A stretch of DNA of 64,000 bases from Gammaproteobacteria bacterium (GTDB lineage Bacteria; Pseudomonadota; Gammaproteobacteria; Pseudomonadales; JAUIET01): NCBI GenBank assembly GCA_030431775.1, contig JAUIHW010000005.1:121952-185951 (forward strand). The letters are read 5' to 3'. Both the position numbers and the translations under genes were made by a program. Below the pieces are notes generated by a model that ran no database searches, was not told the DNA's origin, and was given only the letters and a program-made list of their open reading frames with translations. Shown here in pieces: positions 3,672 through 46,913 of the stretch; the stretch's first letter is position 1; every line of letters begins with the position of its first letter.

Positions 3672-5738
3672 TTATGGCAACCTAAATACGTACAGCGCCT
3701 GCCCATTGGCGGGTTGGTAAATGTCCGGACTGATCACCGCAGTCATCGCACGAAACACGCCCATTCCTGTGGGAATTGCCAGGTATTGTTCACCATTTGC
3801 CGCATAGGTAATAGGGTAACCATGCGCAGGAGCTCCCAAACGGGTACGCCACAACAGCTTACCACTGCGTGCATCAAAGGCGTTCAAGTATCGGTCCAGG
3901 TCGCCCACAAAAACCAGATCGCCCGCGGTAACCAGCGCGCCGCTCATGAACATGGCGCGTTGTTCATGGCGCCACTCTTCTTCCATAGAGACGGTGTTAA
4001 TCGCTACCAGCCTGCCCAGTTTACCATCGCTGTGCGGTGCAGCGAATGACCTTGAATCACCGCCATACCCGCCCTCTCCCAATACTTGAGGTACCTCCCT
4101 GCCGGTGAGCTCGGAACACAGATTGTGCAAAGGAATAATGAGTGTGCGCTGACGGCTCGAATACGCCATTGATTGCCAGTTATGGCCGCCATATATGCCC
4201 GGGCAGGTTTTTATAGGGTCACCGATACCGGCCGCCACAATGTCGGCCCGATACTGCACGGCACCGGTTACTTTGTTCACAGATTCGAATACGTCCTGCG
4301 GTAAAGTTTCAACCACTCCATCGAATGCGCCGGTGCGACGATCCAAGCGCCACAGCAAGCCGTCTTTACCCACCGTGAACACCCAACGCTTATCGCCTTT
4401 GTCCACCAGAACACGTTCAAAACCCACTTCCATGTCGATGGTTTCACCCGGAATGTGCTGGTAATACCAGACCATTTCGCCAGTTTTGGCGTTCAATGCC
4501 AATGTGGAATTAGTGTACAGGGCACTGTCAGCTGTTGACATGCCGCGGCTTGCCGCCACCCAGGGCTTGGCCTGAGAAGTGCCGATATAGAAAAGTCCTA
4601 GCTGAGGGTCGTAGCTGCCAGCTATCCAGGTGTCACTTCCTGCGCGGAATTCCGGTGCAATATCACCCCATGTGGAATCCTCTTCAGTGCCTGGCGCGGC
4701 AATGGTCGAGGTGCGCCAAAGCTCTTTACCGGTTGCTGCATCGTGCCCGGTGATAAAGCATCCACTTTTCTTAAAGCGCTCGCATCCATTAATACCTGAC
4801 AGCACCACACCATCGCCAATAATAGGCCCGGCCGTATGGGTATAGCCCAAGCGGTAGTCGGCTTTAACACTGCGCCACACCAGCTCACCGCTTTTCGCAT
4901 CCAGCGCAATCAGCGCCGCGTCATACGTCGCCAAATAAACTTTGTCATCATACAAGGCAATATTGCGCTGCGGCCCACCGAGAGTTTTCGATTCCAGCGG
5001 GTGCGGGTATGCATACTCCCAGATCAACTCCCCGGTGCTGGCATCCAATGCTTGAATGATGTTCCCTGAATTCGCCAGAAACATGACACCGTCATGCACC
5101 AATGGGGTTGTTTGATTACTACCTTCGCGCATGGCCAGAACCCAGGCAAGCTGCAACTTGTCAACGTTCTTACGATTGATCTGCTTCAAAGGACTATCCG
5201 CGTGGCCATCCAGCGTACGGCGCCAGCTCAACCAGTCTTCCGGGTCAGGCCTGTTGAGCATACTTTGGGTAACCGGGCGCCACTCATCAAGTACGCGGTT
5301 TTTGAACGCGGAGCGATTACGGGCGATGTTGGCAATGCTTGCAGCATTGGACCACGAATCTTTCGCTTGGTTGTCGTCAACTGCGATGTCTTCCTCGCTT
5401 TGTATAGTGCTAGCATTATTGCGCGCAAGCAAATAGTCAACCAGCTGTCGATGGTCCGCCTCACGCAAGCTTGTGTCACCGCCGGGCGGCATATTACTCA
5501 TGTTATAAGCCAGCAAAGCAGCAACACTGGCTGAGCCCTTGCTCAGGCTCCACTTGCTCACAAAGGCCTGACCAGTCAACGCATTACCATGAGCAGAGCC
5601 GCGCAGATTCAGGCCATGGCAGGTAGCGCAGTGATCGGCATACAGCGCGGCACCCGCAGAACTCTCTGTGCCCTGCGCTGCTGCAGCTGAAATAAACAAA
5701 CAGGTAATTAGAATAAAAGGAGGCTTTATCTTGCCCAA
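3672..5738 (-). CDS. PQQ-dependent dehydrogenase with N-terminal cytochrome c domain (quinohaemoprotein)
   Basis: CATCH haem motif near N-terminus followed by PQQ beta-propeller repeats (GELIWEY, LDAKSGELVW, GKLLWRTRLGAPAHGYPITY). Listed ORF extends to 5882 but overlaps the upstream gene; TTG at 5738 just before a signal peptide is the likelier start. Confidence 0.85.
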   Translation of the reverse strand: MGKIKPPFILITCLFISAAAAQGTESSAGAALYADHCATCHGLNLRGSAHGNALTGQAFVSKWSLSKGSASVAALLAYNMSNMPPGGDTSLREADHRQLVDYLLARNNASTIQSEEDIAVDDNQAKDSWSNAASIANIARNRSAFKNRVLDEWRPVTQSMLNRPDPEDWLSWRRTLDGHADSPLKQINRKNVDKLQLAWVLAMREGSNQTTPLVHDGVMFLANSGNIIQALDASTGELIWEYAYPHPLESKTLGGPQRNIALYDDKVYLATYDAALIALDAKSGELVWRSVKADYRLGYTHTAGPIIGDGVVLSGINGCERFKKSGCFITGHDAATGKELWRTSTIAAPGTEEDSTWGDIAPEFRAGSDTWIAGSYDPQLGLFYIGTSQAKPWVAASRGMSTADSALYTNSTLALNAKTGEMVWYYQHIPGETIDMEVGFERVLVDKGDKRWVFTVGKDGLLWRLDRRTGAFDGVVETLPQDVFESVNKVTGAVQYRADIVAAGIGDPIKTCPGIYGGHNWQSMAYSSRQRTLIIPLHNLCSELTGREVPQVLGEGGYGGDSRSFAAPHSDGKLGRLVAINTVSMEEEWRHEQRAMFMSGALVTAGDLVFVGDLDRYLNAFDARSGKLLWRTRLGAPAHGYPITYAANGEQYLAIPTGMGVFRAMTAVISPDIYQPANGQALYVFRLP

Positions 5739-5766
5739 CCTAAAGCGCCTGCTCTTGCCCAATGGT

Positions 5767-6171
5767 CTACTGGCCAAATATCTCGGTAACATGTTCCGTG
5801 TCCATGTACTCATGCACCGCACACAACTTGCCATCCTTGATCTTATGCAGGAAATGATACTCGTTCTTATAGGTCCTGCCATCGTTCATCTCGCCGAAAG
5901 AGTCTGCCTCCATCGCCACCCGATCGTCTTCAGCCGTCATTACTGTTGGCGTCACCTGAATGCCATTCTTGGTATTCTCGGCAACACCATTAACCAAACC
6001 GCGAAACTCAGCCTTACTGTACTTGCCGGAAATATCGGTGGTGCCGGTAACCCACCAGACGAGATCGTCCGCCAGAAGTTCAAACGCGTCATCAAAGCGG
6101 CTTTCGGAAAACGCTTTCCAGAAGGTTCTGACCAGTTCTTTGTTTGCTTCACTCACTGCATTGTCCTCCAA
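5767..6171 (-). CDS. NTF2/SnoaL-like protein
   Basis: 134 aa; EANKELVRTFWKAFSESRFDDAFELLADDLVWWVTGT pattern typical of SnoaL-like fold. Confidence 0.8.
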   Translation of the reverse strand: MEDNAVSEANKELVRTFWKAFSESRFDDAFELLADDLVWWVTGTTDISGKYSKAEFRGLVNGVAENTKNGIQVTPTVMTAEDDRVAMEADSFGEMNDGRTYKNEYHFLHKIKDGKLCAVHEYMDTEHVTEIFGQ

Positions 6172-6218
6172 TTGCTACCAGGTGCATTTTTGACCACGTC
6201 GATTCTCCGTCGCTATGA

Positions 6219-6659
6219 TCATGCCATGTCCGAACGGTGATAACTCAGGTTACCGGGAAGATCCGGCGAAATGTCTCTGGCACGAAAGCACCAATCGCCA
6301 TCCACACGCTCAAAGCGATCGTTATACTCACCAATAAATATTGGCTGCAATGGAAAGTCCGGTGGTACCGCCTGAAAGACAGTGATGTAACTTTGCGCGC
6401 ACGCAGATTGGCGGTCCTCGGCAATTTGAATCTGCACATTACTCATCACGTGCTTGGTGTTCGGTTTGCCATCATAAAGAATCACGTTCTGCAGCGTTTC
6501 CAGCACCGCTTTCGAGCCATGGTCGCCACCGCTTGGGTCTCCCAGCACAGTCCACGAACCGTGCTCAAAGAGTGCAGCAAAACCTGCAAAGTCGCCTGAG
6601 TCGATGCGGAAACAGTATTCCGCCATTAGACGCTCAATCGCGGCGAGGTCTGCATCCAT
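6219..6659 (-). CDS. NTF2/SnoaL-like protein
   Basis: 146 aa; LAAIERLMAEYCFRIDSGDFAGFAALFEHGSW, typical SnoaL_4-like start. Confidence 0.8.
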   Translation of the reverse strand: MDADLAAIERLMAEYCFRIDSGDFAGFAALFEHGSWTVLGDPSGGDHGSKAVLETLQNVILYDGKPNTKHVMSNVQIQIAEDRQSACAQSYITVFQAVPPDFPLQPIFIGEYNDRFERVDGDWCFRARDISPDLPGNLSYHRSDMA

Positions 6660-35100: not shown

Positions 35101-36117
35101 TTAGTCGCTGCCGACGCCAGCATTATCACTCGGCTCGTTATTTTCTACATCACCCTCATCAGCAATTATTGGTGCAAAGTCATTCACGGTCATTTGTGGC
35201 TTGCGGTTTAACCACAGACGAGTGACGTCTGGCCTAGAATAATGCCCAACGGGATCCGCAAAAGACTTCGCTACAGCAATAGCGCCAAGATCAATGTCTG
35301 CGTACAAAATGCCTTCTTCCTCTGGCCCAAGTGGAGAACACATTGGGCTGCCATCCGGAGCATAAATCTGAGCATAGCCTCCGCCTTTCAATAGTAACTC
35401 TGCTTGCTGTTCGTTATCGACCAGGAAATCATGCATATCCTCAGAAACCACGCCACACGGTGCGAGGACATAACAGCTTCCTTCCACAGCGTATACTTGT
35501 GATGCGGCGCCATTCAACTTAGGTCCCAATGAGTACGCCTGAGGGTAACAGGAAAAGGATGGCCAGGCGGCTACATGAATCTGCTCATGCATACTGTACA
35601 TCGCGTATTTACTCAATGGCTGCAGATGTTCCCAGCAACACAATTGACCGACTTGACCCAATTCGGTATCACAAACCTGTAGATCACTTCCATCGCCCTC
35701 GCCAAACACTGTACGCTCCATATGAGTTGGTTTTAACTTGCGACGTGCAGCTAACAGATGACCGTCACGGCCAAATAGAAACTGGGCAATATACAGCGAA
35801 CCATGGTCACGCTCACTCGCTCCCATCGACAAGAAAATATTGTGCTTCTGAGCAGCGACACTTAATCGTTCAAAGGCGTTACTGCCTTTAACAAGGCAGT
35901 TCTCATGATAGCTTTGAAAATAACGAATATTTGCTGCCGCCGGGGAGAGCCAGATCCACCAAGGATAGCCAGGAAGCCAGCACTCAGAGAATGCAACCAG
36001 CGAAGCACCGTTGGCTGCAGCTTCTTCAATCAAGCTCACTGCTTTATCAATGCTGGCATTCAGCCGCATGAATTCGGGCGCCGCCTGTACGACAGCTGCC
36101 TTGAAAACTGTACTCAT
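35101..36117 (-). CDS. Nitrilase (carbon-nitrogen hydrolase superfamily)
   Basis: Glu region LVAFSECWLPGYPWWIWL, Lys region RKLKPTHMERTVFGEGDGSDL, Cys region LCCWEHLQPLSKYAMYS. Confidence 0.92.
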   Translation of the reverse strand: MSTVFKAAVVQAAPEFMRLNASIDKAVSLIEEAAANGASLVAFSECWLPGYPWWIWLSPAAANIRYFQSYHENCLVKGSNAFERLSVAAQKHNIFLSMGASERDHGSLYIAQFLFGRDGHLLAARRKLKPTHMERTVFGEGDGSDLQVCDTELGQVGQLCCWEHLQPLSKYAMYSMHEQIHVAAWPSFSCYPQAYSLGPKLNGAASQVYAVEGSCYVLAPCGVVSEDMHDFLVDNEQQAELLLKGGGYAQIYAPDGSPMCSPLGPEEEGILYADIDLGAIAVAKSFADPVGHYSRPDVTRLWLNRKPQMTVNDFAPIIADEGDVENNEPSDNAGVGSD

Positions 36118-36173
36118 AATCAATCTCCTAAATCATTCCGCCAGTGACTACGGGCTGGCACCAATGAGAAGCT

Positions 36174-39505: not shown

Positions 39506-40969
39506 ATGACTCTTGAAACCATGATACTGCTGGGCCTGCTCGCTTATCTGGCCAGCATGATGCTGATCGGCTTATACGCCGGTAAAGGAACGCACTCGGC
39601 AACGGATTTTATTCTAGCGGGGCGTTCCCTGCCCCTGTGGCTGTGCTCCACGTCTATCTTCGCCACCTGGTTTGGCAGCGGCATCATGATGGGTGCGGCC
39701 ACCTCTGGTTACGACCGGGATTTCCTGGCAATGATTGCCGAGCCCTTTGGTTCCGCGCTTGCGCTGCTTCTGTGTGGGCTATTCTTCGCCCGCATCATTC
39801 GCCGTACACGGCGCATGACCTGGATTGAGTTCTTTGAAATGCGCTATGGAAAAATCGCCGGTTTCTTCGGTGCTATGGCCGATATCGGCTCTGGGGTAAT
39901 CTGGGTTGGCGGCGTATTGTTCACCTTCGGCGTACTGGCAGAAACCTTTACCGGACTGCCCATGGCGGTGGGAATACTGGGCGGCCTGCTGGTGATCGTG
40001 TCCTATACCATGATCGGCGGCATGCTGGCAGTGGCCCTGACCGATTTCGTGCAAACCATTATGTTAGTGCTTGGCATGCTCATTCTGCTGGTAGTGGTAT
40101 TGAACGACGTAGGCGGCTGGGCTGCAATCGAACAACAATTACCCGCTGATACCATACGCTTCTTCCCGGTTGAGCACACTTACCAGAACTGGATCGAGTA
40201 CATTCATGTGTGGATGACCCTGGGCGTGGCGGCTATTGCCGCCAATTCAATTATTCTGCGTGCCTTGGCTGCGCGTACCGAGCAAGTTGCCCAGAACTCT
40301 TTTCTTGTAGCCAGCATCGCGTACACGGTGATTGGCTGTGTGCCCATAGCCCTGGGTCTGATTGCCAGCGTAACCATGCCGGACATCGCGGACCCCAATG
40401 CCGTACTCACTGATTTGGCGCGCGAGCACCTGCACCCCGTCATGGTGGTACTGTTTGTCGGCGCCATTTTGTCGGCAATTATGAGCACCTGCGACAGCGT
40501 ACTTCTCAGCGCTGGCTCGGTGATCAGTACTAATCTGTTACCACTGATCTCCAAGAACCCGGATGATGCCCTGCGGCTTAAGGTTGCCAGGTTTAGCATC
40601 CCTTTCACAGCGGCCGCTGCAACTTATATTGCTTTTGGCGCAGAAAGGGTGGTGGAAGTACTGGTGCAGTCCGCCGCCCCGCTCCTGGCCATGACCATCG
40701 TGCCGTTTATCCTTTGCTTCTGGTGGAAAAAAGCGAACCGCAGCGGCGCGCTGGCAGGTATTGTGGGCGGCTTGATTGGCTGGGGCTCCGCAGCCATGCT
40801 TGGCACTGTCACCCCGCCCGACCTGGTGGGTTTCGCGGTTTCTCTGGTGGCCATGATTGTGGTTTGCCTGCTCACACAACACATGGATCCACCACAACCC
40901 CTAACCGACATAGATGGGCAAGTCGTTGCGCTTGAAAGACGGTTTGCCGCTCGGGACACTCTCCCTTAG
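39506..40969 (+). CDS. Sodium:solute symporter (SSS) family transporter
   Basis: DFILAGRSLPLWLCSTSIFATWFGSGIMMGAA; ILSAIMSTCDSVLLSAGSVISTNL. Confidence 0.92.
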   Translation: MTLETMILLGLLAYLASMMLIGLYAGKGTHSATDFILAGRSLPLWLCSTSIFATWFGSGIMMGAATSGYDRDFLAMIAEPFGSALALLLCGLFFARIIRRTRRMTWIEFFEMRYGKIAGFFGAMADIGSGVIWVGGVLFTFGVLAETFTGLPMAVGILGGLLVIVSYTMIGGMLAVALTDFVQTIMLVLGMLILLVVVLNDVGGWAAIEQQLPADTIRFFPVEHTYQNWIEYIHVWMTLGVAAIAANSIILRALAARTEQVAQNSFLVASIAYTVIGCVPIALGLIASVTMPDIADPNAVLTDLAREHLHPVMVVLFVGAILSAIMSTCDSVLLSAGSVISTNLLPLISKNPDDALRLKVARFSIPFTAAAATYIAFGAERVVEVLVQSAAPLLAMTIVPFILCFWWKKANRSGALAGIVGGLIGWGSAAMLGTVTPPDLVGFAVSLVAMIVVCLLTQHMDPPQPLTDIDGQVVALERRFAARDTLP

Positions 40970-41046: not shown

Positions 41047-42276
41047 ATGAACTCTCCCGACAGCAGTATTTTTCGGGCAGCCCATATTGACCGATTGCGG
41101 TCTATTCGCTCAGCGGCCAAAGTCGAAGCGGTTGGCAATATGCTGAGCGTGATTCTTGCGACCGCCATGTTGTACCGGTTGGTGGACGCCCAATGGCTTG
41201 CGCTCTGGACCGTCGCTATTCTCGGGTCACTTGCCCACCGGGCTTACCTGTTGTTGACGCAAGACGTCCTCAGTACAAACGCGCTCTACCGATGGTATAC
41301 AGCCTATGGCTGGAACATTTTTGCCAATGCTTGCCTTTGGGGTGTGCTTCTTTTCACCGTTTCCCTCAAGCTCGACCGCTACCTGGTACCGTATTTCTTT
41401 ATGATCATGGGGCCGATCATTGCATCGCCCAGCCTGACCTACTTCACCGACTATCGTCTTTACCTTCGTTTTGCCTTGCCGGCTATGGTTCCAGCCGTAT
41501 TGTGCCTGATATTTCAGTTTGACCCACTCAGCTTTATTTTGGGTTTGCTGTTGCTCGGCTGGATTATTGTGACCCATGAAAACAGCAAGCGCGTCAGCGA
41601 AGAAACAGACCGTCTGACCGTATTGCGTGCGCGCAAACAAGTACTTGCAGAACAACCGCTCAGATCTCTAAGTACCGCGGAAGAACAACTGGCCGAACAG
41701 CAACTGCAGGAGCAACGCGGCCGTCTGATGATTGAGGCCGGCATTTCTGAAATTGGTGGTAACGTTTACAGCGTTCTCATGATCTGCATTGTGTATTGGC
41801 AACAACTCGGGCCAACGACACTGACCGCGTGGGCAGGCATATGTATTGTCCTGCTCTCGCACAGAATCTGGCTGATTCACCGTTTCAAAACCCGGAGAGA
41901 AAAACTGAGCGTTCAGCGCTGGAAACAATGGTATCGGGCCAGCACGACTGTTCTCGGCGTGTGCTGGGGCGGACTGTTTCTGTATGCATCTGCCACTTTA
42001 CCAATCACCCAGCTCTCTATACTTTTTATGATGGTCGGCGGGCTTATCGCCGCACCCGGATTCAGCTACTACACTGACCGGCTATTAATGGACTGCTTCA
42101 ACTTTCCGGCCGTTATTCCAACCGTCGTATACTTACTGTCAACTGGGCTCACAGTAAAAGCGCTGCTGGGTGTTCTATCGGCCGCCTGGCTGATCCTGAT
42201 CATCAATAACGCGGCAAAGCTGAACGCCCAGCGCGATGAGTTGGCGGGGCTGAATAAGCAGTTGTTGCGCTCGTAA
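41047..42276 (+). CDS. Polytopic membrane protein with internally duplicated sensor-like TM domain, no output domain
   Basis: Two internal repeats: VEAVGNMLSVILATAML...IIASPSLTYFTDYRLYLRFALPAMVP and SEIGGNVYSVLMICIVY...LIAAPGFSYYTDRLLMDCFNFPAVIP. Confidence 0.7.
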   Translation: MNSPDSSIFRAAHIDRLRSIRSAAKVEAVGNMLSVILATAMLYRLVDAQWLALWTVAILGSLAHRAYLLLTQDVLSTNALYRWYTAYGWNIFANACLWGVLLFTVSLKLDRYLVPYFFMIMGPIIASPSLTYFTDYRLYLRFALPAMVPAVLCLIFQFDPLSFILGLLLLGWIIVTHENSKRVSEETDRLTVLRARKQVLAEQPLRSLSTAEEQLAEQQLQEQRGRLMIEAGISEIGGNVYSVLMICIVYWQQLGPTTLTAWAGICIVLLSHRIWLIHRFKTRREKLSVQRWKQWYRASTTVLGVCWGGLFLYASATLPITQLSILFMMVGGLIAAPGFSYYTDRLLMDCFNFPAVIPTVVYLLSTGLTVKALLGVLSAAWLILIINNAAKLNAQRDELAGLNKQLLRS

Positions 42277-42379
42277 ACCAAACAACACTCACGGAACCGA
42301 TCTGTAAAAAGCTTACCTTGCGTCACTATTAACCAGTCGCTATTCTCACGTCATTCTCGCAGCGCTATAGATAATTACG

Positions 42380-43648
42380 ATGCTCGAGCCGGCTCTCATT
42401 TCCAAGCAAGCGGTGTTACAGGCCCGGGTTCGCGAGGTGGTGTCTGCCGCCGGGGTCGAAGTTGCCGGCCATGGTTTATCAGCCGCGATTGCGGTGGCCA
42501 TGCTGTCCCGGCAACTGGATAGCGTGGTATTGGCACTGTGGCTGATCGGAATGGCCGGTATTCTGCTCTATCGTGTGCATCTGACCTGGGCGCAGCCCGC
42601 TACTCATCCAGCGGATGCCCGGCGGTGGTGGCAAGCCTACAGCATGAACATTGCATTGTCCGGCGGTGGCTGGGGCATACTGCTGATGCTTGCCGCTCAC
42701 CTGCTGCCTGCCGCAGTGGTGCCCTTCGCCATCATGTTGGCGGCCTTTATAGTCGCGTCACCAAGCTTGACTTATTACAACAATCATCCCCTGTTTTTGC
42801 GCTTCGCCCTGCCAGCACTTCTGCCTTGCTGCCTGGTCTTGTTACTGAGCCTGGAACTCGCCTCAGTGATCACAGCGGTGCTTACGCTGGCCTGGGTAGC
42901 TGTGAACCATATCAACATCCGCAAGTTCAGCGAGCAAGCGGACCGGTTGGCGGTATTGGTTTTACAAAAGGAGGCGCTCGACCCCGATGCTGCTTCTCGA
43001 CCGCTCGCCCATACATTCCCAAGGCCCGAGGCGGCATACTCCAGCGACCTTGAGGCCGACCCGATCAGCCGGGAAATTCAGGCACAGCGTACTCGCATGA
43101 TGTTGTCGGTTGGCGTCGTGGATGTGGTTGGCAATCTGCTGTGCATCGCTATGGTCGTGGTGCTGTATTGGGGCTCTCTTGGGCCAGCTCTGTTACTGCT
43201 ATGGAGCGGCGTCACAGCATCAGGACTTCTATTGCGAGCTTGTTACTTACGCAATTGCGCACGTATTTCCATAAGGCGCTGTTACTCCCTGTTTGAGTGG
43301 AGTTCGCTGTTCAACGGGGTTTGCTGGGGCACCATTCTGGTACTGGCCGCACAGCAGTTACCGGTCGACCAGTTATCCTACCTGCTGTTCACTATTAGTG
43401 GCTTGCTGGTCACACCGAGTTTCAGCTACTACTCCTTCAATAGAATCTTCACGTGTTTCGCTTTACCCACGATTGTGCCCTTCGCCGCATTTCTGGTTGT
43501 ACAATTTCAATTATTGGAAATCGCTATTGCCGCTCTGGTGTTAAGCTGGCTGGCCGTCATGAGCAATAATCTCGCCAAGCTTAGCGCAAACGGCTGGTGG
43601 CTGGCGCAGCTGGACAAAGAACTGCTCAGTCTCAGCCACCGGGCCTGA
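42380..43648 (+). CDS. Paralogue of preceding membrane protein, same internal duplication
   Basis: VEVAGHGLSAAIAVAML...FIVASPSLTYYNNHPLFLRFALPALLP and VDVVGNLLCIAMVVVLY...LLVTPSFSYYSFNRIFTCFALPTIVP. Confidence 0.7.
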   Translation: MLEPALISKQAVLQARVREVVSAAGVEVAGHGLSAAIAVAMLSRQLDSVVLALWLIGMAGILLYRVHLTWAQPATHPADARRWWQAYSMNIALSGGGWGILLMLAAHLLPAAVVPFAIMLAAFIVASPSLTYYNNHPLFLRFALPALLPCCLVLLLSLELASVITAVLTLAWVAVNHINIRKFSEQADRLAVLVLQKEALDPDAASRPLAHTFPRPEAAYSSDLEADPISREIQAQRTRMMLSVGVVDVVGNLLCIAMVVVLYWGSLGPALLLLWSGVTASGLLLRACYLRNCARISIRRCYSLFEWSSLFNGVCWGTILVLAAQQLPVDQLSYLLFTISGLLVTPSFSYYSFNRIFTCFALPTIVPFAAFLVVQFQLLEIAIAALVLSWLAVMSNNLAKLSANGWWLAQLDKELLSLSHRA

Positions 43649-43690: not shown

Positions 43691-45361
43691 TTGAAAACGA
43701 CATTTCTCGGCAAAACCGTGTCCGGACCCTTTACCATTCCTTCCGGAATTGTGACGTGCTCAGCATCCATTATTGCCGCGTTTATACGCTGCGTACCCCA
43801 AGTGGGTGTGTTGACCACCAAGAGTATTGGTCTGAACCCTCGGGAAGGCTATCGCGAGCCCGTTCTCAGCCAGTATGCACCCGGCTGTTTCGTTAACGCA
43901 GTCGGCCTGACCAATGCGGGCGCGGAAGCCTCAGCCGCGGCACTGGCCGCACTGGACATACCAAGCGACCGCTTCTTACTGACCTCAATTTTTGGCGGTG
44001 ATGCTGAAGAGTTTGTTGCAGTGGCTCGGCTGCTGGCACCGGTCAGCGACGGGCTGGAACTGAATCTCTCCTGCCCGCACGCGAAGGGCTATGGCATGGC
44101 GATCGGCCAGGACCCGGCGCTGGTGGCCGAGATTGTCAGCGCTGTAGTGGCCGCGGTGGATGTGCCCGTAGTAGCCAAACTAACCCCAAACACAGACGAT
44201 ATTGGTGCCATCGCCAAGGCTGCCGTTGACGCCGGTGCGGCCGCGCTGTGCGCCATCAATACCGTCGGGCCGGGGTATTTTTCGGCGCATGGCGCTCCGG
44301 TGCTGAGCAATGAAGTGGGTGGCATTTCCGGGAAGGGCGTGCTGCCCATTGGGCTTAAGTGCGTGCGCGAGATCCGCGCGGTCACCGATTGCCCGATTAT
44401 TGCCTGTGGCGGCATCAGCAGTGCCGACGATGTGCAGGCCTACCGTGACGCTGGTGGCAGTGTGTTCGGTATCGGCTCCAGCCTGGTGGGCATGACAACC
44501 GCTGAAATTGCCGACTATTTTACAGCGCTGTCGGCCGAGCTTGAGCCGGGCACCCCTGATTCGAGCCCGACGACGCGTACCGAAAGCCTGGTTCACTACG
44601 ACGTGGACATGAGTTTTCAACCAGTGACCCTGCGTAGCAATGAGCGGGTGAGCGAAGACATTGCCATTCTTCGCTTTGATCGCGCCCTGAACATCCAGGC
44701 CGGGGAGTTCATCTTCCTTTGGATTCCCGGCCTCGGTGAAAAACCGTTTTCGGCCTTAACCGATGATCCGTTCTCGCTGGTCGTCATTAACCTCGGGCAG
44801 TTTACCGCCGCACTGATGGACCTCCCTCCTAACACTCAGGCCTATGTGCGCGGGCCGCACGGTGTTGCCGTGCAGCCACCTCCGGGCTCACGGGTGATGG
44901 CGGTCAGCGGCGGCACCGGTCTGGCCGCAGTCTATCAGGTTGCGCGAGATCATGTTCGGCAAAGCAAGCTGCAAGGCACTAACGGCTGCGCCGAGTTTTT
45001 TATTGGCGCGCGCACCGCCGACCGCCTGTATTTTGAAGCCGAATGTGACGAGTTTGCTGCGGTGCACATTGCCACCGACGATGGCAGCAAAGGCTACCAT
45101 GGCCTGGTCACCGAGCTGTTGGACGAGCACCTCAGCCGTTTATCCGAGGCCGAACGGCAAAGCCTGGTATTCTATAATTGCGGGCCGGAACCGATGGTTC
45201 ACGCGGCTGCAGAAGTGCAACGCCGTTACTGTAACGAAGAACAAATATTTAACGCAATCGACTACTGCACAAAATGCGGGGTTGGCATCTGCGGGGCCTG
45301 TGGCACACCGGACGGCCGGCGCCTATGTGTTGATGGGCCGTTTTTGGGTTCACTCCGGTAA
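43691..45361 (+). CDS. Fusion of class 1B-like dihydroorotate dehydrogenase (PyrD) with PyrK-like FAD/[2Fe-2S] electron-transfer domain
   Basis: N-half: LELNLSCPHAKGYGMAIGQDP, PVVAKLTPNTDDIGAIAKAAVDAGA, CGGISSADDVQAYRDAGGSVFGIGS; C-half: VMAVSGGTGLAAVY and YCTKCGVGICGACGTPDGRRLCVDGPFL. Likely TTG start. Confidence 0.85.
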   Translation: MKTTFLGKTVSGPFTIPSGIVTCSASIIAAFIRCVPQVGVLTTKSIGLNPREGYREPVLSQYAPGCFVNAVGLTNAGAEASAAALAALDIPSDRFLLTSIFGGDAEEFVAVARLLAPVSDGLELNLSCPHAKGYGMAIGQDPALVAEIVSAVVAAVDVPVVAKLTPNTDDIGAIAKAAVDAGAAALCAINTVGPGYFSAHGAPVLSNEVGGISGKGVLPIGLKCVREIRAVTDCPIIACGGISSADDVQAYRDAGGSVFGIGSSLVGMTTAEIADYFTALSAELEPGTPDSSPTTRTESLVHYDVDMSFQPVTLRSNERVSEDIAILRFDRALNIQAGEFIFLWIPGLGEKPFSALTDDPFSLVVINLGQFTAALMDLPPNTQAYVRGPHGVAVQPPPGSRVMAVSGGTGLAAVYQVARDHVRQSKLQGTNGCAEFFIGARTADRLYFEAECDEFAAVHIATDDGSKGYHGLVTELLDEHLSRLSEAERQSLVFYNCGPEPMVHAAAEVQRRYCNEEQIFNAIDYCTKCGVGICGACGTPDGRRLCVDGPFLGSLR

Positions 45362-46000
45362 GCTGCAAATAAAGGCACTGACGGCGGTAATCTCCAATCC
45401 GCTCAGCTCCCGTACGGCCGCAGCCATCCCCTGAGCGGTTGGTGTACCTCCACGCAGCCCCTCCTGATAATTCACCAATTGTTCGGCAATGTATTGCGGG
45501 TGCAAAATATCTAACCTGGGAGAATCCAGCGCCGTATTCCCTTCGGCCTGGCTACCATGGCAGGCAATGCAGCTTTGGTAAACCGCCTTGCCAACCGCCT
45601 GCTGTTCACTGTCTGGCGCGCAATAGTCCTTTGACACCTTGCTCGGCGCAAGCCCGCTGAACCGGGCCGCCAACTGAACAATTTCTTCATCGCTCAGTGC
45701 CGCGGCCATCAAAGCCATCTGCTGGCCATAAGCATCCTCAACGCTGGCGCCACGCTTGCCGTCCCGATAATCGCGCAACTGACGAATAAGGTATGCAGCA
45801 TTCTGCCCGGCAAGCGCCGGAATATGCAGGGGATAGCGGCCTTCGGCCTGCTCGCCATGACATGTCGAACAGGTAAAAACAATCTGATCGATTCCGCCTT
45901 CAGCGGCAGCAAACGCTTGGCAGGCAAGCAGCGACAGCAGCATACCAATGCTAAAAATGGCAGCGCGCTGCGTCCTCAGCAAGCCGCTAGTCATCATCAA
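45350..46000 (-). CDS. Dihaem c-type cytochrome (c4-like)
   Basis: Signal peptide; CSTCHGEQAEGRYPLHIPALAGQNAAYLIRQL and CIACHGSQAEGNTALDSPRLDILHPQYIAEQL. Confidence 0.88.
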   Translation of the reverse strand: MMMTSGLLRTQRAAIFSIGMLLSLLACQAFAAAEGGIDQIVFTCSTCHGEQAEGRYPLHIPALAGQNAAYLIRQLRDYRDGKRGASVEDAYGQQMALMAAALSDEEIVQLAARFSGLAPSKVSKDYCAPDSEQQAVGKAVYQSCIACHGSQAEGNTALDSPRLDILHPQYIAEQLVNYQEGLRGGTPTAQGMAAAVRELSGLEITAVSAFICSLPE

Positions 46001-46913
46001 TGGTCGTCACAGCCGGCTTGGCCCGCTTATCCCACTGCAACTGGAACACATCCGGGCGTGAGTAATGTCCGGTACCGTCGAAAAACCACTTGATCACACC
46101 TATCATCCCCAGGTCGATCTCCGCACTCAGAATGGTCTCCTGGTCAAACACCGGCTCAACGAGAAAGTCCCCGCCGGGAGCAATAATCGCACTGCCGCCA
46201 TGAGTATTAAAATGGGCGCGGGAGGCATCGTCGATGGGCCAATCGGCTGGCAGCTCCTGCGCGCTCATGACTTCACGCGCAACTATCACAAAGCAACCGT
46301 TTTCATGCGCGAGGTGGCGGGTGGAGGCATCGATAATTCCGTCAATGAACGCATGGCCTGGCCAGGCGCTGGCATGCACCTGGCAGCCCAGGCTGCATAG
46401 AGCATACCGCGGTAGAGCCATCTGGTGCTCAAAGCAATTTAAGCCGCCTACGCGGCCGACAGCCGTGTCATACACTTGGATATCGGAACCGTCACCCATC
46501 CCCCATACCACTCGCTCAGCCTGGGTGGGCATGAGCTTGCGCTGGACTCCTAGCACCTCACCCTTATCACTCACATACAGCAGGCTACAGTACACGCTGC
46601 CACCAGAACGCTCGTTGAAGCCAAGCACGACCGAGCAGTTGTGGGTAGCCGCCGCTTTCAGTACCGGCGCAAGCGCAGGGTCATCTACCGAAATTGCCGA
46701 CCGCAGAAACTTTGCCAGCAAAAATTGATAGTCGGCACTGCTGGGTGCCAGACCGGAAAAATACGGGTAGCCTTGCAACCAGGCTTCTGGAAAAACCACC
46801 AGCTCGGCACCTTGCTTAGCGGCTTCGCCAATGGCCCTGGCCGCCTTTTCGGCACCTGCGCGGGCGTCAAAAACTTCCGGTTGCCATTGAACCGCAGCTA
46901 CGATGGATGCCAT
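45987..46913 (-). CDS. Nitrilase / carbon-nitrogen hydrolase
   Basis: Glu region LVVFPEAWLQGYPYF, Lys region RKLMPTQAERVVWGMGDGSDI, Cys region GGLNCFEHQMALPRYALCS. Confidence 0.88.
   Translation of the reverse strand: MASIVAAVQWQPEVFDARAGAEKAARAIGEAAKQGAELVVFPEAWLQGYPYFSGLAPSSADYQFLLAKFLRSAISVDDPALAPVLKAAATHNCSVVLGFNERSGGSVYCSLLYVSDKGEVLGVQRKLMPTQAERVVWGMGDGSDIQVYDTAVGRVGGLNCFEHQMALPRYALCSLGCQVHASAWPGHAFIDGIIDASTRHLAHENGCFVIVAREVMSAQELPADWPIDDASRAHFNTHGGSAIIAPGGDFLVEPVFDQETILSAEIDLGMIGVIKWFFDGTGHYSRPDVFQLQWDKRAKPAVTTIDDD

Follow-up and report, generated by a model that had tools for sequence, protein, structure and literature searches.

Tandem paralogous genes for doubled six-helix membrane units of a sensor type, lacking an output domain, as possible detached receptors in a gammaproteobacterial genus

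The window analyzed here, a stretch of 64,000 nucleotides, contains two adjacent plus-strand genes, A (41047..42276; product P0001, 409 aa) and B (42380..43648; product P0002, 422 aa), which are paralogues (35% identity in a full-length alignment, E 3e-73) separated by an intergenic gap of 103 bp. Each encodes two six-helix membrane units and no output domain. Upstream on the same strand lies a gene for an SSF sodium:solute symporter (39506..40969, +; PF00474, E 5e-39) that ends 77 bp before A, and a search of this 77-bp gap revealed no terminator-like site. Downstream, a flavoprotein gene (43691..45361, +) starts 42 bp after B; its 556-aa product carries in one chain a part resembling PyrD-type dihydroorotate dehydrogenase and a PyrK-like FAD/NAD/Fe-S electron transfer domain. 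The GC3 of A and B is similar to that of the neighboring genes, and a plasmid search with A gave no match. Two genes on either side of the region (35101..36123, - and 45987..46913, -) encode Nit6803-like nitrilase-family proteins, both with scores under the family cut-off, and the nitrilases, TonB receptors, GPH-type symporter and SSF symporter around A and B probably constitute a catabolic island. A copy of the flavoprotein, 71% identical, was found in a congener (genome G001, a MAG), where it is located elsewhere, has other neighbors and is not accompanied by A and B; the operon context of A and B is not conserved between the two genomes.

A and B each consist of two copies of a single membrane unit of ~190 aa. 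The N-terminal and C-terminal units of A comprise residues 11-213 (41077..41685, +) and 216-399 (41692..42243, +), and those of B residues 9-200 (42404..42979, +) and 228-402 (43061..43585, +). The two halves are identical at 53/180 positions in A and at 60/192 in B; the N-terminal units of A and B are identical to one another at 78/190 positions and the C-terminal units at 61/186, and identity between units is 27-41%. For all six unit pairs, the score exceeded that of hydropathy-preserving shuffles by z = 23-47, and hhalign comparison of the N-unit and C-unit profiles gave a probability of 99.5%. These results bear out the original prediction, which had recognized two copies of one unit in each of the two reading frames (409 and 422 aa), and they contradict the possibility, raised together with it, that the halves are not homologous. 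The hallmark motifs that it had listed are inexact in the second unit of B, which has VDVVG for E..G, LLVTPSFSY for A[SA]P and FALPTIVP for FxxPA.

The distribution of the unit was determined with sequence profiles. A ten-row profile (A1), made from the units of A and B and single-unit relatives, gave matches in 110 of 274 genomes of the class, and in the examples that were read the unit forms the N-terminal membrane region before HisKA-HATPase, HisKA-HATPase-receiver, GGDEF or PAS-GGDEF-EAL domains. To avoid circularity, another profile was built with rows solely from other bacteria; these rows had been gathered with a profile containing the A and B units, so that the rows are independent while their choice is not. 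With this outside-genus profile all four units scored 76-94 bits (N- and C-terminal units, 76 and 94 bits in A, 77 and 80 bits in B), compared with 5 bits reached by 400 hydropathy-preserving shuffles, and the SSF and MFS carriers encoded in the window were negative. Using a 41-row profile (alignment A5), we found the unit in 185 of 399 sampled Pseudomonadota genomes (~46%). The units of A and B had been likened to the N-terminal membrane regions of GGDEF-type signaling proteins. Since the outside-genus profile finds all four of them, this idea is right as to homology, but its scope was too narrow, because the membrane parts of histidine kinases and hybrid kinases are equally similar.

Pfam and NCBIfam searches detected no domain in A or B, and hence no output domain in either chain, in agreement with the earlier claim that a catalytic domain is absent; the catalytic domains of class III adenylyl cyclases were likewise not found by these searches. 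No Pfam or NCBIfam model for the unit itself was consistent across the 41 units even at E 10. Thus, the suggestion of a new membrane family does not hold in the strict sense, as the unit is common in Pseudomonadota, though without a curated model. A name for the unit would aid annotation, given that almost half of the Pseudomonadota genomes sampled contain it and that no curated model of the family exists.

The original prediction also pointed to MASE and related domains for comparison. MASE2 (PF05230) and MASE5 (PF17178) resemble the unit in being membrane-associated sensor domains ahead of cyclases. However, homology to MASE2 was not supported (hhalign probability 1%, one row at E 1.3). MASE5 is not recognizably related either: its model matched 2 of the 41 rows, with E values no better than 0.42, and it hardly occurs in the class. 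A MASE1 match for the unit was not obtained, and searching the PDB by sequence yielded coiled-coil noise and other chance matches only.

AlphaFold predicted a single-unit orphan, i.e. a single unit without an output domain, as six helices, the last of which continues unbroken into a long cytoplasmic coil (pLDDT 94.3). For A, the monomer model (pLDDT 85.3), a check proposed along with the original prediction, consists of 2 x 6 helices arranged as two bundles joined by a helical linker. Because six is an even number, both units would have the same orientation, and a single chain would thereby mimic a parallel dimer. The distribution of positive charge, which is clearest in the single unit and in the C-terminal unit of A, favors an N-in/C-in topology, and most charge sits in the cytoplasmic loops and the linker. 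Foldseek comparison of A with the PDB gave no match at E 0.001. The sole match with a TM-score >0.4 was the membrane domain of human AC9 (9u3q; TM 0.48, probability 1.00, E 0.083), and the single unit weakly matched the cyclase ImcA of Pseudomonas aeruginosa (PDB 8wcn; TM 0.36, E 1.0). These model-based matches are suggestive of an analogy of build, not of homology. AC9 has two concatenated six-helix bundles that form a pseudo-dimer (PMC11606603), a build that A would share according to its predicted model, but it has no detectable sequence homology to A, A is without its catalytic domains, and an E value of 0.083 is not significant. ImcA similarly has a dimeric six-helix membrane unit ahead of GGDEF (PMC10904736), but it carries an output domain, and the unit profile had no sequence match in the PDB set.

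The two-times-six build is also what would be expected if A and B were transporters, or accessory subunits of the SSF symporter or the flavoenzyme, in which a 12-helix duplication product has lost sensing. Many carriers are duplication products. With the SSF symporter gene lying 77 bp upstream of A, this is the main rival to a receptor role, and the same-strand flavoprotein gene 42 bp away and the lack of a terminator-like site between the neighbors are consistent with it. However, neither protein matches a Pfam or NCBIfam transporter family, so that the assignment to a well-characterized transporter family for which the original prediction had left room was not obtained. Furthermore, the carrier structures in the Foldseek list of A had TM-scores of ~0.20 or below, the two units are predicted to be equally oriented, the motif of the sensor unit is retained and the gene context is not conserved. 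We therefore consider a transport function doubtful.

To survey the genus, this genome and the one congener (contig JAUIET010000014.1) were searched with every candidate scored and a cut-off of E 0.01. The units found in this genome number six, two each in A and B and one in each of two further genes; the congener has four units in four single-unit genes. All of these genes are without an output domain. Among the scored candidates of the two genomes, no copy of the unit carried an output domain, and the 47 stretches around the GGDEF and HisKA matches of this genome contained no unit. Within the two genomes examined, the output domain is absent across the genus. Because the assembly of this genome consists of 121 contigs and is 98.3% complete, an output-bearing copy could be missing from it. 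A search for the unit joined to an output domain elsewhere, as had been proposed at the outset, found it in kinases, GGDEF proteins and GGDEF-EAL proteins of other bacteria and in none of this genome. Two single-unit orphans occupy an identical gene context in both genomes, one after a DacB/PBP4-type gene and the other after a gluzincin-type gene (labels that come from reading the sequences rather than from a family search), suggesting that these genes have been kept.

Outside the genus such orphan frames are rare: of the 144 class matches listed outside this genome, only 2 lay in frames shorter than 300 aa. Among the matches listed, the shortest frame in the order outside the genus was 361 aa. 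A few short frames turned up in the phylum sample, some of them broken or located at contig ends. Among the matches listed for the best 7-10 candidates per genome, none of the other sampled genomes showed a two-unit protein. In a profile search of genome contigs, the A4 profile had no match and the A6 profile matched only the congener contig JAUIET010000014.1.

The same searches bear on the possibility that A and B are decoys or regulators whose pairing with output-bearing proteins that share the unit would inhibit those proteins or tune their activity. Such units act as dimers in membrane diguanylate cyclases, for which the ImcA homodimer offers a precedent (PMC10904736). However, a copy of the unit joined to an enzyme was found neither in the candidates of the two genomes (E 0.01) nor in the GGDEF and HisKA regions of this genome. 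This result limits candidate partners to distant or undetected relatives and weakens the model, which is rather improbable.

In the congener, two single-unit genes are arranged in tandem and overlap by 4 bp; relative to the two-unit model, the first gene matches the N-terminal half and the second matches the C-terminal half. A ParA-like ATPase gene lies directly downstream of this overlapping pair (L063, 12242-13186, -). In a tree, the ten units of the genus formed one clade (100/97), within which the units of the doublets and of the pair formed one clade (99/97), and the first gene of the congener pair grouped with the two N-terminal units (87/84). A topology that makes the two units of A mutual closest kin, as would result from a separate internal duplication in A, was rejected (AU p 0.021), which indicates that the internal duplication predates the split between A and B. 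The N/C duplication may have come before or after the split from the congener's pair (AU p 0.44). The doublets would go back to an ancestral unit of the six-helix sensor type that drives kinases and diguanylate cyclases, and the loss of its output domain would have occurred in this genus. The output-less unit would then have duplicated in tandem, and two copies would have fused into one chain imitating the parallel dimer that enzyme-linked units are presumed to form. Duplication of the doublet gene would have yielded A and B.

We also compared the units of A and B with their fused relatives position by position. In the latter, the most conserved membrane positions are W48, R59, W78, G90, W93, G94, F137, P140 and P144, and the cytoplasmic signatures are L-Y before helix 1 and EN..L..L in the linker after helix 6. 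The core motif (W, R, G..WG, F..P...P) is present in A and B, with W48, R59, W93, G94, F137, P140 and P144 present in all four units and G90 in three. The EN..L..L coiled-coil linker signature, which is common but not universal in the unit family, is lost in all four units and kept in most single-unit orphans. The L-Y signature is also lost in A and B, and their tails after the last helix are short and without the long coiled coil of the fused relatives. The fused kinase, GGDEF and EAL relatives (A5 family) are sequence homologues with the same helices and the same core motif, but in them a single unit precedes a coiled coil and then a kinase or cyclase part, whereas A and B have two units and no output. 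Because the membrane set is kept almost completely while the cytoplasmic signatures are lost, the selected function of A and B, as judged from sequence conservation, most likely resides in the membrane core. In both proteins the usual signal route to an attached enzyme is gone, and with short tails and no long coiled coil to pass a signal, A and B may not signal at all.

The lost linker signature and the lack of A/B doublet orthologues in the congener could also mean that A and B are decaying relics, i.e. sensor halves that drift without function after loss of the output domain. This is unlikely in view of their four uninterrupted units, a membrane motif that is intact after at least two duplications, a GC3 like that of the neighbors and the retention of two single-unit orphans in place in both genomes. 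We give little credence to a purely structural role, without sensing, in which A and B would be membrane organizers that scaffold or anchor cytoplasmic enzymes. Such a role would suit the concentration of charge in the cytoplasmic loops and linker and the adjacent gene for a soluble flavoenzyme, but is at odds with the lack of a conserved soluble partner gene and with conserved residues that lie mostly in or beside the membrane helices.

Since the enzyme is absent from A and B and no enzyme-bearing copy was detected in the genome, the two proteins look like detached receptors. We propose, with a probability of roughly 0.5, that A and B are detached, covalently dimerized receptor modules that sense within the membrane and act through a separate partner. 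In this model, the conserved residues within the membrane would make up a pocket or a packing core. It would respond to ligands that are small or hydrophobic, or else to the membrane's state; the cytoplasmic loops and the linker would relay the change to another protein, the partner that would take the place of the fused enzyme.

This proposed receptor role is drawn by analogy from several precedents. The two six-helix bundles of adenylyl cyclases function as receptors for lipids (PMC11606603), and CqsS, itself a six-helix receptor, can substitute for an adenylyl cyclase bundle, giving ligand control (PMC4821796). A membrane sensor part can also serve as a docking site, as shown for the MASE1 domain of DgcE and RdcA (PMC6510439), and the membrane part of ImcA, a six-helix cyclase that is a homodimer, is required to bind the inhibitor IsmP (PMC10904736). 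Stand-alone MASE1 domains are reported from 20 genera and have been suggested to sense on their own (PMC3718329). Like A and B, they are membrane sensor domains without the usual output domain, but they belong to a separate family from the A/B unit, and the passage on them does not describe tandem doubling for MASE1 (PMC3718329). Stand-alone sensor domains are therefore already known; the doubling, the tandem genes and the genus-wide lack of output are new. A broader claim, that this lineage detached a common sensor domain entirely from its enzymes and rebuilt it as free-standing, single-chain pseudo-dimer receptors of 2 x 6 helices, resembling the membrane half of mammalian adenylyl cyclases and signaling through a new type of partner, is put forward tentatively, as possible rather than probable.

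What six-helix membrane domains do in kinases and cyclases has been asked for a long time, since the attached enzyme blurs the distinction between sensing and anchoring. A genus that keeps the unit in at least four genes without an enzyme, and with its membrane core conserved, argues that the domain acts on its own. A and B, as naturally isolated and putatively single-chain dimers, would lend themselves to ligand screening and structural work.

Finally, both of the short class frames mentioned above are in one family (f165), and each adjoins a dapB-like gene among the matches listed. These single-unit orphans are located at 5989-6642 (+) of L054 and 5294-5893 (-) of L055, and the two genomes also carry units in frames of 400-828 aa. 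In the best tree, the f165 orphans were placed apart from those of the genus, and a single common orphan clade was not rejected (p 0.16); judging from these placements, the two groups likely had independent origins. In the phylum search, genomes of ~2-3 Mb in another family (f237, e.g. G716, G684 and G694) had up to seven copies of the unit, some of them in short or broken frames.
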